From Candidatus Zixiibacteriota bacterium (GTDB lineage Bacteria > Zixibacteria > MSB-5A5 > DG-27), in assembly GCA_030605835.1 (NCBI GenBank), contig JAUWHO010000051.1:1-50155 (forward strand): 50,155 bases of DNA, written 5' to 3'. The position numbers and the translations under genes were made by a program. Within the stretch, counting starts at the first letter, position 1; every line of letters begins with the position of its first letter. Below, piece by piece: positions 19,102-30,296 of the stretch. The notes beneath the pieces were generated by a model. That model was given only the letters and a program-made list of their open reading frames with translations. It was not told where the DNA came from and did not search any database.

Positions 19102-19239
19102 GGGGCGGGAGTATAACTCCCACCCCAGCTGTGCGGTATTCTGCGCCACTGCACCTCTTACTGCTGGGGCAGGGGTTCAACCCCTGCCCCCATTGTATCC
19201 GCTTAATCGGTTTAATCTGCTGTGAAGGTGCTGTGAATC
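19102..19239. repeat. Composite intergenic repeat, copy 1
   Basis: About 140 bp comprising a hairpin (GGGGCGGGAGT with ACTCCCACCCC), a 42-bp link starting CAGCTGTGCGGTATTC and ending GCTG, a second hairpin (GGCAGGGGTT with AACCCCTGCC), and a unique tail running to the SBBP gene stop. A near-identical copy lies at 20968-21105 and a shorter one at 23388-23494, each just downstream of a minus-strand secreted-protein gene. Confidence 0.88.
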
Positions 19240-20967: not shown

Positions 20968-21105
20968 GGGGCGGGAGTGCAACTCCCACCCCAGCTGTGC
21001 GGTATTCGGCGCCACTGCACCTCTTACTGCTGGGGCAGGGGTTGAACCCCTGCCCCCATTGTATCCGCTTAATCGGTTTGATCTGCTGTGAAGGTGCTGT
21101 GAATC
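20968..21105. repeat. Composite intergenic repeat, copy 2
   Basis: Nearly identical to 19102-19239, including both hairpins, the link segment and the ATTGTATCCGCTTAATCGG tail. It lies between the stop of SBBP gene 2 and the promoter of SBBP gene 1. The shared tail and gene ends suggest that gene and flank were duplicated together. Confidence 0.88.
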
Positions 21106-23387: not shown

Positions 23388-23494
23388 GGGCCGGGAGTGC
23401 AACTCCCACCCCAGCATTTAGGGACCCCAGCGGTGCGGTATTCTGTGCCACTGCACCTCTTACCGCTGGGGCAGGGGTTGAACCCCTGCCCCGA
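23388..23494. repeat. Composite intergenic repeat, copy 3 (shorter)
   Basis: It has the two hairpins and the GTGCGGTATTC ... CACTGCACCTCTTAC link of copies 1 and 2. It carries an extra 16-nt insertion after CCCCAGC and lacks the unique tail. It lies 9 nt after the stop of the VCBS gene. Confidence 0.82.
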
Positions 23495-26258: not shown

Positions 26259-26810
26259 TCAGCTTTCGGCTTTTATCCTCTCGAAGAGATCTAAAACGGA
26301 GAAGTAAGAGAGCCATCTTTTCATGTATCTCAAATCTAGATTGCCTCTTTGAATTTGGTAGACGCCTGAAGCGCCGAGATAATGCTTCTCCGAGGAGGAA
26401 TCTTTGTATCGCTTCAGCCTGATGATCATTAGACCCTCGGCGGTGGTGATGAACATCATCTCATCGAAGATCTTCCTTTTCTTCCTTCTTTGGAAGCGAG
26501 TGGCATCGTACTTGTCTCTCCCCTTGAGCCCGAAGTCGACCTTGAGGCCAGCGGCGTGATGTAGGGCGTTGAACATAGTCCAGTGCTGCAACGCCTCCAA
26601 TATTCCCCCGGCGGCTATATAGAAACCACTTTGAAAGGAGCTGACGATTCCTTCGACCATAGAGGCCTGGAGTTCCACCAGTAAGTCCACATCGTGGGTT
26701 AACCTGGGCCTCCCATAATAGTTCACCGCTATCGCTCCAGTTATCATGTAAGGAATTCGGAGTCCTTGCAGCCTGCTGACAACAGTTTTGAGAACCTCCT
26801 CCTGGGTCAT
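26259..26810 (-). CDS. Nucleotidyltransferase-fold protein (AbiEii/MNT-like)
   Basis: A 183-residue nucleotidyltransferase-fold protein. The core motif is TGAIAVNYYGRPRLTHDVDLLV (about residues 22-43), with the two metal-binding aspartates in DVDL and a third acidic strand in LKVDFGLKG (about 90-98). Proteins of this type are found in AbiEii-like toxin and housekeeping NTase groups. Here it overlaps a 63-residue helical partner by 4 nt (ATGA) and lies downstream of a palindrome (27051-27075), an organisation like a toxin-antitoxin pair. The acceptor (tRNA, protein or small molecule) is unknown. Confidence 0.78.
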   Translation of the reverse strand: MTQEEVLKTVVSRLQGLRIPYMITGAIAVNYYGRPRLTHDVDLLVELQASMVEGIVSSFQSGFYIAAGGILEALQHWTMFNALHHAAGLKVDFGLKGRDKYDATRFQRRKKRKIFDEMMFITTAEGLMIIRLKRYKDSSSEKHYLGASGVYQIQRGNLDLRYMKRWLSYFSVLDLFERIKAES

Positions 26811-26998
26811 CTGCCTACTCGATCCCTTATCTTCGCTTTCAAATCCTCCCCCGAAACCCCGGGGTATTCCTCTTCGATCGCGGATTTCATGATCTGGTAA
26901 GCCATCTCATACAGCTCCGCCCCGATCTTCACCCTCCGGTTGGGGGACATCCTTCTCAGGATGTCCAGATACTTCGCTTCAGCTTCTTGCGGTCTCAT
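26807..26998 (-). CDS. Small helical partner of the nucleotidyltransferase
   Basis: A 63-residue, charged, all-helical protein (ILRRMSPNRRVKIGAELYEM ... IEEEYPGVSGEDLKAKIRDR). From memory, small proteins with an MSP..R...A.EL.E ... P..S.E....+..+R pattern commonly precede NTase genes in diverse bacteria; they are uncharacterised. It overlaps the NTase by 4 nt. The ATG at 26998 is preferred to a GTG at 27025, which has no ribosome-binding site. A role as antitoxin or adaptor is inference from the gene arrangement. Confidence 0.65.
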   Translation of the reverse strand: MRPQEAEAKYLDILRRMSPNRRVKIGAELYEMAYQIMKSAIEEEYPGVSGEDLKAKIRDRVGR

Positions 26999-27050
26999 TT
27001 TTCCAGCAATTGACGGGTCCCTCACCTAACATAACTGCTCGGTGCAACTT

Positions 27051-27075
27051 TTGAGATTCAACAGTTGATTCTCAA
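27051..27075. promoter_or_regulatory. 25-bp near-perfect palindrome, candidate operator
   Basis: TTGAGAT-TCAAC-A-GTTGA-TTCTCAA is a 25-bp dyad with eleven of twelve pairs matching around a central A. It lies 26-53 nt upstream of the possible starts of the small helical protein. A similar half-site (ATTCAACTGT) follows at 27091-27100. Size, symmetry and position fit a dimeric repressor site autoregulating the two-gene module. Confidence 0.6.
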
Positions 27076-27201
27076 GTTATGAGGTTCAGCATTCAACTGT
27101 CAATATTCCTTGGGAAGTTTCGGAAAAGTCATAGTCCTAAAATGTGAATGAACACGGGACATAACGCAAGCACACAGTTCCCAACCTAGCTTTGGGTTCA
27201 T

Positions 27202-28128
27202 CTACATTCTTGCCATCTGACTGCTTTCCGATTGCAGAACAAACCCTACGGCAAGTACTTTCAATTCTTCTCTGCTTGTTCCCTCAAATTCTTTGTCTAA
27301 GTGGTCGTAGATTTTTTCAACCTCCTCTGCATCCGCCTCCAGGGTAACGCTTTCACTTATCAGGGTTAGCTTGAATTTCTCAAATAGGCCCCGGTAATAC
27401 CCTATTCTTTTTCTGTTGGGCGCTCCGATATTGCAACCCATTAAGTTCCATAACCATTGAGGTGGGGTTAGGAAGAACAGCTCTGATTTACCCCTGAATC
27501 TGTTGTGGCATCTCAGGTCGACTCCATGGTACATGTAACCACCGGGTTTAAGCAGAAGAACAAGATTTCGGAACGTCTCTTCGAGATTATATACATGCTC
27601 CAACACTGCGTTAGAAAGAATGATGTCTGCTATCTCTCTGCCAAGGATCTCCAGACTTCTTTCAACTTCGGTCCCAAAAATATATTCAATTTTATCAGAC
27701 CAAAACCTATAGCCATCTTTGGTAAGGAGAATGGCTTCAGAGGCCTTTTCTCTCTCTTTTGGAGCCATTCGCTCAATCAGCTCTCTGTACACGGCCCGGA
27801 CCTTAGTTTCATTTCTGTGGCAACGGAATCTATCCAAGCATATTACTTTTTGTGCCCCCAGGCTTAAGAGTTTTAGAGCAACACCCAAATTGTCGCCTGG
27901 ACCTACTTCGAGGATAGTCTTATTCGAGATTTCGATTCCATGCCCTGACAGCTTAGATGTATATGTTCCCGTCACGCTTTCAATATGCTCAATGCTTTCG
28001 GGGACGTCTTTGTCTTCTATGCTCGTTCCGGAGAAATTGACAAACGGCAGCAAATTATTGTGGATCAAGTATATCATTCCTTCCATGACAGGGTTTTTCC
28101 TGACAACGGTCTTCATTTTCTCAAACAT
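27202..28128 (-). CDS. Class I SAM-dependent methyltransferase
   Basis: A 308-residue Rossmann-fold methyltransferase. The SAM-binding motif I is EVGPGDNLGVALKLLSLG (about residues 74-91), the acidic motif II ICLDRF follows, and motif IV/V is DIILSNAVLEHVYN with LLLKPGGYMYHGVD. Residues 1-70 form an N-terminal extension. The LKPGG and EHV phrases are typical of methyltransferases acting on sugars, lipids or small metabolites; no substrate can be named. It stands alone, is divergent from the M14-like gene, and is separated from the NTase module by about 180 nt. Confidence 0.85.
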   Translation of the reverse strand: MFEKMKTVVRKNPVMEGMIYLIHNNLLPFVNFSGTSIEDKDVPESIEHIESVTGTYTSKLSGHGIEISNKTILEVGPGDNLGVALKLLSLGAQKVICLDRFRCHRNETKVRAVYRELIERMAPKEREKASEAILLTKDGYRFWSDKIEYIFGTEVERSLEILGREIADIILSNAVLEHVYNLEETFRNLVLLLKPGGYMYHGVDLRCHNRFRGKSELFFLTPPQWLWNLMGCNIGAPNRKRIGYYRGLFEKFKLTLISESVTLEADAEEVEKIYDHLDKEFEGTSREELKVLAVGFVLQSESSQMARM

Positions 28129-28443
28129 TATAATAATCTCACATAATTAGGTGATAGCGTGATTTCGTGAGAGAAGCTCATACCTCAACTTCCCGTCTTG
28201 TCGTTTACTGAAGGGAAGTTCCCTCACCCATTGCCCTGTTTATTTTCATTTGAAGATATTTGAAACGAAGCTCCATTGCAAGTCAATTGGTTTCAATTTC
28301 AAAGCCCACCTGCTTCTCTGCCCAAAGGCAGACCCTACCAAATGCTGGGGAGCCACAGGGTTGGAAACCCGATTGATAGGATTATCTTCTCATCAGCTAA
28401 CTCCCCCACTGCCAACCACATTTCTAATTGCACTCTAAATGAT
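28129..28443. other. Intergenic stretch with no gene recognised
   Basis: AT-richer spacer between divergent genes. It contains GGGTT-GGA-AACCC-type hairpin potential near 28365 and a few phrases loosely like a GEMM riboswitch, which I rejected. No supported ORF and none of the hairpin or heptamer repeats found elsewhere. Confidence 0.5.
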
Positions 28444-28473
28444 TTGACATTCGGCTTCATGATTATTCATATT
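28444..28473 (+). promoter_or_regulatory. Candidate promoter of the M14-like C-terminal gene
   Basis: TTGACA (28444-28449, perfect) and CATATT (28468-28473, four of six) are separated by 18 bases. They lie 35 nt before the ATG at 28508. Confidence 0.45.
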
Positions 28474-28507
28474 GGGTTTTCAAGCTGATCAATTTGGAGA
28501 GAGTTCC

Positions 28508-28951
28508 ATGGAAAGAGGAGAGACTTGCAGTTTGGCCACCAGGTCCTCGTTAGGGCATTGGCTTTTGGTGTCCCTCATTATCAGCGTCTGCTCAATCTCC
28601 ATTATCACAGCTGTGCCTATTGCTCGCGCCGTCGTTTCAGCCGGAGGTGAAGAAAACGCAGACTCGATGCTTCAGCTTTACCCGGAGCCTTTCTTTCCGG
28701 AGGGAACCTACGACAGCTCCATTCCTGATCCGGAGAGCTTCCTCCGCCTGAGCGGACTTCTCTGGCCGGAAGCTCGAAAACGGTGGAAAGAGACCGCGTA
28801 TCTCACCCCAGAGGGGTTGGGAAAGGGACAGATAATCCTCTTCGCTGGCGAGCCCCACTTCAGAGCCTACTTCAACGGCTCCGGGAGGCTCTTGATAAAC
28901 GCCATCCTGCTCGGTCCCGGTTTCGGCGCCAGACCAAACCACGACAGATAG
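28508..28951 (+). CDS. Orphan C-terminal module of M14-type zinc carboxypeptidases (possible remnant)
   Basis: A 147-residue protein with an N-terminal hydrophobic segment (about 15-45), then LYPEPFFPEGTYDSSIPDP, LRLSGLLWPEA and a C-terminal block (LGKGQIILFAGEPHFRAYF, GRLLINAILLGPGFG). As I recall it, this pattern is the extreme C-terminus of long bacterial M14 peptidases, where it reads like GRGRVI.FADDPNFRAYW.GTNRLFLNA. The catalytic domain with its HxxE zinc site is absent and not found upstream. It is either a decayed gene that acquired a membrane anchor or a small stand-alone envelope protein. The ATG has GGAGAG upstream. Upstream in-frame start codons lack a ribosome-binding site. Confidence 0.55.
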   Translation: MERGETCSLATRSSLGHWLLVSLIISVCSISIITAVPIARAVVSAGGEENADSMLQLYPEPFFPEGTYDSSIPDPESFLRLSGLLWPEARKRWKETAYLTPEGLGKGQIILFAGEPHFRAYFNGSGRLLINAILLGPGFGARPNHDR

Positions 28952-29113: not shown

Positions 29114-29551
29114 ATGGATCCTGAACTTCTAAGCGAAGCCCGGATTTGGTTCAGACAGGCAGAATCCAACTACAAGTTCTTATCGGTTGCCAGAAAGTCG
29201 GAAAGCTACGATCTGGTCTGTTTCCTCTCTCAGCAGGTAGCCGAAGAGGCTCTGAAGGCTTATCTTTTCTGCCAGGGAAAAGAGGAGACCTCCACCCACG
29301 TCATAACAGAGCTGTGTCAAATCGCCTCCAAATATGATGAGGGATTCCTGCAGTTGAAAAACGAAATTGAAACCCTCAATTATTTCAATATCGTTGTCAA
29401 CCACTCAAATCCGGTCGAATGTGCCATCCCCGGCACCCTCTTCGGTCAGGCGGATGCGGAGAAGGCCATCGCCACCGCCAAAGAGGTGCTGGATTTCGTG
29501 AGGGATAAGCTCCCTTTCAATCCAGCGGACACTCCGGTTGCCGATAACTGA
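29114..29551 (+). CDS. HEPN-domain protein 1 (diverged)
   Basis: A 145-residue HEPN-fold helical protein. The family pattern W.+QAESN, DLVCFLSQQVAEEALKAYLF and a histidine-led helix THVITELCQIA are clear. It is a paralogue of the gene at 29877-30296 (about half the residues match by eye). The EARYPN phrase conserved near the C-terminus of HEPN2 is replaced by VVNHSNP. HEPN proteins are often paired with MNT nucleotidyltransferases, one partner being a ribonuclease-like toxin. The MNT gene follows after 18 nt. The loss of the RYP phrase suggests this copy is diverging in function. Confidence 0.82.
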   Translation: MDPELLSEARIWFRQAESNYKFLSVARKSESYDLVCFLSQQVAEEALKAYLFCQGKEETSTHVITELCQIASKYDEGFLQLKNEIETLNYFNIVVNHSNPVECAIPGTLFGQADAEKAIATAKEVLDFVRDKLPFNPADTPVADN

Positions 29552-29569
29552 GAGAAACTGCTAACCTAA

Positions 29570-29887
29570 ATGAGGGTAGACAAACAGAAACTGTTGCAGG
29601 AGCTGGACAGGATAGTGGAACAGCTCAAGGGGATGGGGGCAAAGCGACTCATCTTGTTCGGGTCTTTAGCAAGGGACACCGCCAGACTGAAAAGCGACAT
29701 TGATATTGTTGCTCTCTTCGATGATGAGAGCAACTTCAAAGATAGGACCAAAGCTGTCTACTCTCGACTCGATGCTAAAGAGGGGGTAGACATTCTAGCT
29801 TATAACTTCGAGGAATTTGAGAGGATGAAGAACAGACCCTTCTTCAAACATCTCCTCTCCTACGGAAAGGTCATATATGAATCCTGA
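29570..29887 (+). CDS. MNT-type minimal nucleotidyltransferase
   Basis: A 105-residue minimal nucleotidyltransferase with the signature GSLARDTARLKSDIDIVALF (about residues 28-47) and a third acidic position in GVDILAY (about 77-83). MNT partners of HEPN proteins act as antitoxins, in characterised cases by modifying the HEPN protein with AMP. It sits between two HEPN genes and overlaps the second by 11 nt, so expression is probably coupled. The length is typical. Confidence 0.9.
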   Translation: MRVDKQKLLQELDRIVEQLKGMGAKRLILFGSLARDTARLKSDIDIVALFDDESNFKDRTKAVYSRLDAKEGVDILAYNFEEFERMKNRPFFKHLLSYGKVIYES

Positions 29888-30296
29888 ACTCCTAAAAGAA
29901 GCCAGAAGGTGGCTGAAGCAGGCAGAATCTGATTGCAGCTTTCTGCCCGTCGCCAAAGAATCTGGGAAGTATGATGTAACTTGTTTTCTGTCTCAACAGG
30001 CAGCGGAGAAGGCCCTGAAGGCTTACCTCTTTGCTCAAGGAGAGGAGGCAGTCTTCACTCACGCCATATTCAAGCTCTGTGAAATTGCGGCTCAATACGA
30101 TCAATCCTTCTCCCCACTCAGAGACAAAATAAAACTGCTGGACTATTTCTACGTTGAGGCTCGCTATCCCAACGCAATTGAGGATGTCATCCCCGCCGAT
30201 TTCTTCAATGAAAAAGATGCCCAAGAGGCTATATCGCTGGCCAATGAGACGCTCGATTTCGTTCGAGAGAAACTTTCATCAGTTTTGGGAGAATAG
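29877..30296 (+). CDS. HEPN-domain protein 2
   Basis: A 139-residue HEPN-domain protein, with W.KQAESD, CFLSQQAAEKALKAYLFAQG, the helix THAIFKLCEIA and the YVEARYPNAIEDVIP segment that is conserved in the family but lost in HEPN1. It overlaps the MNT gene by 11 nt and ends 3 nt before the TTG start of apgM. This makes a HEPN-MNT-HEPN cassette apparently read into a glycolytic gene. Whether it acts as a toxin is inference from the family. Confidence 0.9.
   Translation: MNPELLKEARRWLKQAESDCSFLPVAKESGKYDVTCFLSQQAAEKALKAYLFAQGEEAVFTHAIFKLCEIAAQYDQSFSPLRDKIKLLDYFYVEARYPNAIEDVIPADFFNEKDAQEAISLANETLDFVREKLSSVLGE

Follow-up and report, generated by a model that had tools for sequence, protein, structure and literature searches.

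A divergent MenAT1-like gene pair, probably with a disabled nucleotidyltransferase, in a Zixibacteria genome

The gene pair and its upstream dyad

The window (the whole stretch of DNA that was analysed, 50,155 nucleotides) belongs to a draft genome of the candidate phylum Zixibacteria, whose sister species is represented by MAG DG_27 (G001). All sequences compared here come from assembled genomes, mostly draft. Two adjacent genes lie on the reverse strand. P0001 extends from an ATG at 26998 to a TGA at 26807 (26807..26998) and encodes a 63-aa MenA1-like putative antitoxin. P0002 (26259..26810) encodes a 183-aa nucleotidyltransferase (NTase) of the MenT1/AbiEii type. The two genes share 4 nt in an ATGA stop/start overlap on the same strand (26807..26810), which suggests translational coupling. 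An upstream GTG at 27025 would lengthen P0001 to 72 aa; ATG 26998 was taken as the start because the homologues begin at that position. A reading of this DNA from sequence only had described a 63-residue helical protein overlapping an NTase by 4 nt, and both ORFs and the ATGA were confirmed.

An imperfect dyad of 25 bp, TTGAGATTCAACAGTTGATTCTCAA, is found at 27051..27075; it lies 53 bp ahead of the ATG and has a central base flanked by 12 pairs, 11 of which match. An isolated copy of one of its halves, ATTCAACTGT, identical at 9 of 10 positions, lies 15 bases further out (27091..27100); neither feature is assigned a strand. Both had been noted in the sequence-only reading and both are real. 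A weak promoter-like element, TTGACA-16-CATAAC, was placed by eye just upstream of the dyad on the reverse strand (27077..27105, approximate coordinates); it falls below the rule of the promoter scanner and was not reported by it. When the 150-bp upstream stretch was shuffled with a Markov model, an equally good dyad arose in 0.7% of cases, and TTGAGATTCAACAGTTGATTCTCAA occurs only once in its genome. Dyads are common in the window, however, with 91 overlapping matches at a score of 8 or more against an expectation of 11–18; many of these resemble terminators or are repeat palindromes.

The proposal that this dyad is an operator through which the pair regulates itself is not supported by comparison with homologous pairs. 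The dyad is not conserved outside the genus: no dyad better than chance was found upstream of the pairs in G109, G110, G085 and G121, and the hairpin upstream of the G116 pair is unrelated. A phylum-wide scan allowing 3 mismatches recovered the site only here and in the sister species; other genomes gave two poor matches, and the G001 copy has lost one further pair. The leader, intergenic region and methyltransferase gene are 94–98% identical to those of G001, against 85–88% for the module itself and 85% for the next flank, which suggests a recent exchange of a methyltransferase-bearing segment with that species. Since the dyad sits within the exchanged tract, its survival in G001 says little; its retention there was discarded as a sign of selection, the leader-to-methyltransferase tract being highly similar as a whole. 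An RNA hairpin was also considered and rejected: the dyad folds, but the G001 change breaks an A–T pair and is uncompensated on the sense strand. In the characterized system, neither MenA1 nor MenT1 nor both together affect the menAT1 promoter (PMC11375011). Autoregulation is unsupported because the dyad is unconserved, the G001 copy says little and the menAT1 promoter is not autoregulated. A conserved operator was rejected on the absence of the dyad upstream of homologues beyond the genus, and by sequence comparison and analogy the dyad is probably not the operator of P0001/P0002.

Several other features of the window were recorded. A perfect 25-bp palindrome, GGGGCAGGGGTTSAACCCCTGCCCC, occurs at 19166–19190, 21032–21056 and 23468–23492; with up to two mismatches it has 13 sites in this genome, 3 in G001 and 8 in G110, and none in G002 or G109. 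It is possibly an intergenic repeat or a terminator-like element. The region of about 26950–28744 is some 96–97% identical to the sister species amid DNA of about 85% identity. At 28472–28951, joined N- and C-terminal parts look like the remnant of an M14-type carboxypeptidase, from which about 2.4 kb have been lost; the missing part is present in G001 within one 916-aa ORF (L071 2043–4793). Genes for a HEPN protein, an MNT-type NTase and a second HEPN protein follow consecutively at 29114–30296. The MNT and second HEPN genes are absent from G001, and the first HEPN gene may be an orphan.

The two proteins and their relation to known systems

P0002 alone matches PDB 8an4 weakly (E 0.012), but the signal is clear once homologues are included: the best PDB matches of the NTase profile are 8an4, 8an5 and 8rr5 (E 3.8e-7 for 8an4), which correspond, respectively, to MenT1, MenA1:MenT1 and phosphorylated MenT1 (PMC10435456, PMC11375011). 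In the HMMER alignment, MenT1 residues K137 and D152 (136 and 151 in PDB-chain numbering, offset by one) fall on the invariant NTase columns K131 and D146; the second stretch of the alignment, which carries these columns, is ungapped but not significant by itself. P0002 retains T38, D40 and D42, with the T38-x-D-x-D motif intact. It has arginine in place of lysine at 131 and of tryptophan at 134, and glycine in place of aspartate at 126 and 146. These four columns are invariant in seven distant homologues, and all four residues are kept in the nearest full-length relative, from G109. The MenT1 catalytic set (T39, D41, K137 and D152) is therefore incomplete in P0002, T38 and D40 being present and R131 and G146 altered.

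In MenT1, the substitutions D41A, K137A and D152A each abolish toxicity (PMC10435456) and activity on total RNA (PMC11375011). The D152A variant retains autophosphorylation. Judging by its residues, P0002 is most likely catalytically disabled, although some residual activity is possible, as the change from lysine to arginine is conservative and MenT1 D152A still autophosphorylates. The live toxin implied by the sequence-only reading is not supported, given these losses. A single-sequence structure prediction for P0002 was unusable (pLDDT 39). P0002 had no Pfam match to AbiEii (PF08843) at E≤1 and none in PADLOC, and the AbiEii assignment was rejected; weak AbiEii Pfam matches were found in 5 of the 11 NTase homologues, P0002 not among them.

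P0001 is predicted to form three helices (residues 3–16, 19–44 and 50–61), and its AF2 single-sequence model has a pLDDT of 87. On its own it matches PF18993, the Rv0078B-related antitoxin family, weakly (E=0.017–0.024; 15.5 bits, cut-off 27.1). Four of seven small-protein homologues match PF18993 at E≤0.1, the best at 4.6e-6 and all below the gathering score, and the G001 copy reaches 25.6 bits against the cut-off of 27.1. Searching the PDB with the small-protein alignment did not retrieve the MenA1 chain, and the P0001 model had no match among PDB folds with Foldseek. Pfam searches gave no DNA-binding domain in P0001 and did not support a HEPN identity. Matches to designed repeats (kinesin light chain/TPR) were dismissed as a repeat artefact in which no single stretch passes. 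Small proteins of this kind had been called uncharacterized; the family is in fact close to the MenA1 antitoxins, for which structure and mechanism are published.

The pair resembles MenAT1 (Rv0078B–Rv0078A) of Mycobacterium tuberculosis in several respects. A short helical antitoxin, of 63 aa here and 68 aa there, is encoded upstream of a DUF1814-type NTase of about 190 aa with a T-x-D-x-D motif (PMC10435456, PMC11375011), MenT1 is the top solved-structure match of the NTase profile, and the Pfam family approached by the small protein is the Rv0078B-related one. It differs in that the equivalents of K137 and D152 are replaced, the P0001 match lies below the curated cut-off, and a dyad stands upstream; MenAT1 itself has no transcriptional autoregulation. 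The AbiE and MenAT3-4 systems (COG5340-DUF1814, type IV/VII) likewise have a DUF1814/AbiEii-like NTase in a bicistronic arrangement with the antitoxin first. In those systems, however, the antitoxin is a long DNA-binding protein of the winged-helix type, and the 63-aa P0001 has no such domain. AbiEi is described in PMC7319586 as autoregulating at inverted repeats.

Distribution and probable decay within the phylum

The small family was detected in 14 of 133 genomes from the phylum, and the NTase family, including some distant members, in 18. The small gene comes first in seven pairs (G000, G001, G109, G110, G116, G085 and G121), with coupled or near-coupled junctions, and the ATGA arrangement or a similar overlap is also present in G001, G109, G110, G085 and G121. 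Pair neighbours vary by genome (thiL/methyltransferase, an aminopeptidase, tRNA-Pro and others), as would be expected of a mobile two-gene unit, which these pairs appear to be. The earlier view of a toxin–antitoxin (TA)-like module, in which an NTase is joined by a small helical protein, is upheld; the module recurs as homologous pairs at different sites. In a sister clade, the order is reversed, with a related small ORF downstream of the NTase in G104 and G002; ORFs similar to it are also present in G105 and G050. The scan of genome contigs matched only the sister contig, and viral contigs gave no homologue. Plasmids of cyanobacteria and Herpetosiphon yielded six homologues at 24–28% identity, and no MenA1-like neighbour was listed for either of the two that were inspected. 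A second two-gene arrangement, in which a different short ORF (of the LTLEEAEKVDITYWKSKTSEERLDAL... type) precedes a more distant NTase, was seen at L014, L016 and L018.

Lesions in the NTase were found in several relatives. The first metal-binding aspartate is lost in G001 (D41 to G) and in G110 (D41 to N, with a C-terminal frameshift in addition), and the G050 gene has an internal TGA. Contig C243 of G105 carries an intact antitoxin-like gene with a truncated remnant of the NTase behind it. In G106, the antitoxin is intact, and the frame of gmk (guanylate kinase) begins at what was the NTase start codon. To judge from these sequences, toxin loss with antitoxin retention is a repeated pattern in the phylum. 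Solitary MenA1-like genes also lie near DUF370/gmk-like genes in G105, G104 and G106 (L040, L041 and L042, respectively), and that of G106 adjoins a yicC-like gene.

Compared with G001, an excess of synonymous change was found in the small gene (p=0.005) and in the NTase (p=0.0009), the latter test spanning the first 76 codons. The losses in P0002 lie in the C-terminal half, which has no counterpart in the G001 sequence. This excess may reflect selection that predates inactivation or a retained role of a non-catalytic protein. The substitution pattern points to P0002 being maintained, at present or until recently.

Interpretation of the locus

We consider the locus to be, more likely than not, a divergent MenAT1-like TA module in erosion, with the toxin probably disabled, the antitoxin retained and the dyad probably no operator. 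The sequences themselves show the gene pair, its overlap, the homology, the residue losses and the poor conservation of the dyad, and from these the biochemical roles, the loss of activity and the direction of decay are inferred. It is placed near MenAT1 because the NTase profile best matches MenT1 and the small family lies near PF18993, but full membership is withheld, since the catalytic set is incomplete and the antitoxin falls below the curated cut-off. The PF18993 scores below gathering and the missing PDB match to the MenA1 chain, by sequence or by fold, count against the MenAT1-like assignment, and the purifying selection over the first 76 NTase codons counts against a disabled toxin. 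In the proposed mechanism, P0001 would be the antitoxin, expected to neutralize the toxin by docking on the face that bears the active site, and the gene overlap suggests that its synthesis precedes and keeps pace with that of the NTase. Like MenT1, the ancestral enzyme would have extended tRNA 3' ends with nucleotides. With active-site residues lost and the antitoxin frame intact, the present pair would be eroding or attenuated and would not regulate itself.

Neutral decay of both genes, leaving relics with no present function, would explain the substitutions at several invariant NTase columns and the NTase lesions in relatives, and the adjacent M14 peptidase is itself a deletion remnant. We regard it as rather unlikely, as both frames are open, the overlap is intact and both genes show the synonymous excess against G001. 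Retention of a dead pseudo-toxin with its antitoxin is unlikely as well; such a protein might tune the antitoxin, acting as its sink or partner, or might protect against an incoming active MenT1-like toxin. This idea draws on the recurrence in the phylum of disarming with antitoxin retention, including the lone antitoxins near gmk.

Quite unlikely, in our view, is an active TA system with a live NTase toxin and a promoter repressed through binding of the dyad by the small protein, either alone or in the complex. A dyad this good would rarely arise by chance within 150 bp; it occurs nowhere else in its genome and is close to a promoter-like element and a second half-site. Against this stand the four relatives without the dyad, the further pair lost in G001, the recent exchange that accounts for the G001 flank, the menAT1 promoter that MenA1, MenT1 or both leave unrepressed, the lack of a recognizable DNA-binding domain in P0001 and the lost catalytic residues of P0002. 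It is highly improbable that the NTase is instead an antitoxin-like or regulatory transferase, similar to MntA, with an altered substrate that tolerates R131 and G146. In HEPN–MNT modules, which are also two-gene units with an NTase-fold protein, the MNT protein is the antitoxin; such genes lie nearby at 29114–30296, and T38-x-D-x-D is intact in P0002. However, those modules have another NTase family and another partner. The small protein here is not a HEPN protein, family and gene order fit MenA1–MenT1 with the small protein as antitoxin, and so do the antitoxin-only remnants elsewhere.

The probably eroding MenAT1-like module carries a family studied in M. tuberculosis, with 21 menA1 genes listed in PMC10435456, into the candidate phylum Zixibacteria, where both gene orders occur. 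The case also warns against labelling a lone palindrome an operator. Versions found in nature range from intact through catalytically altered and frameshifted to toxin-less, and this series could reveal how systems of the kind become disarmed.
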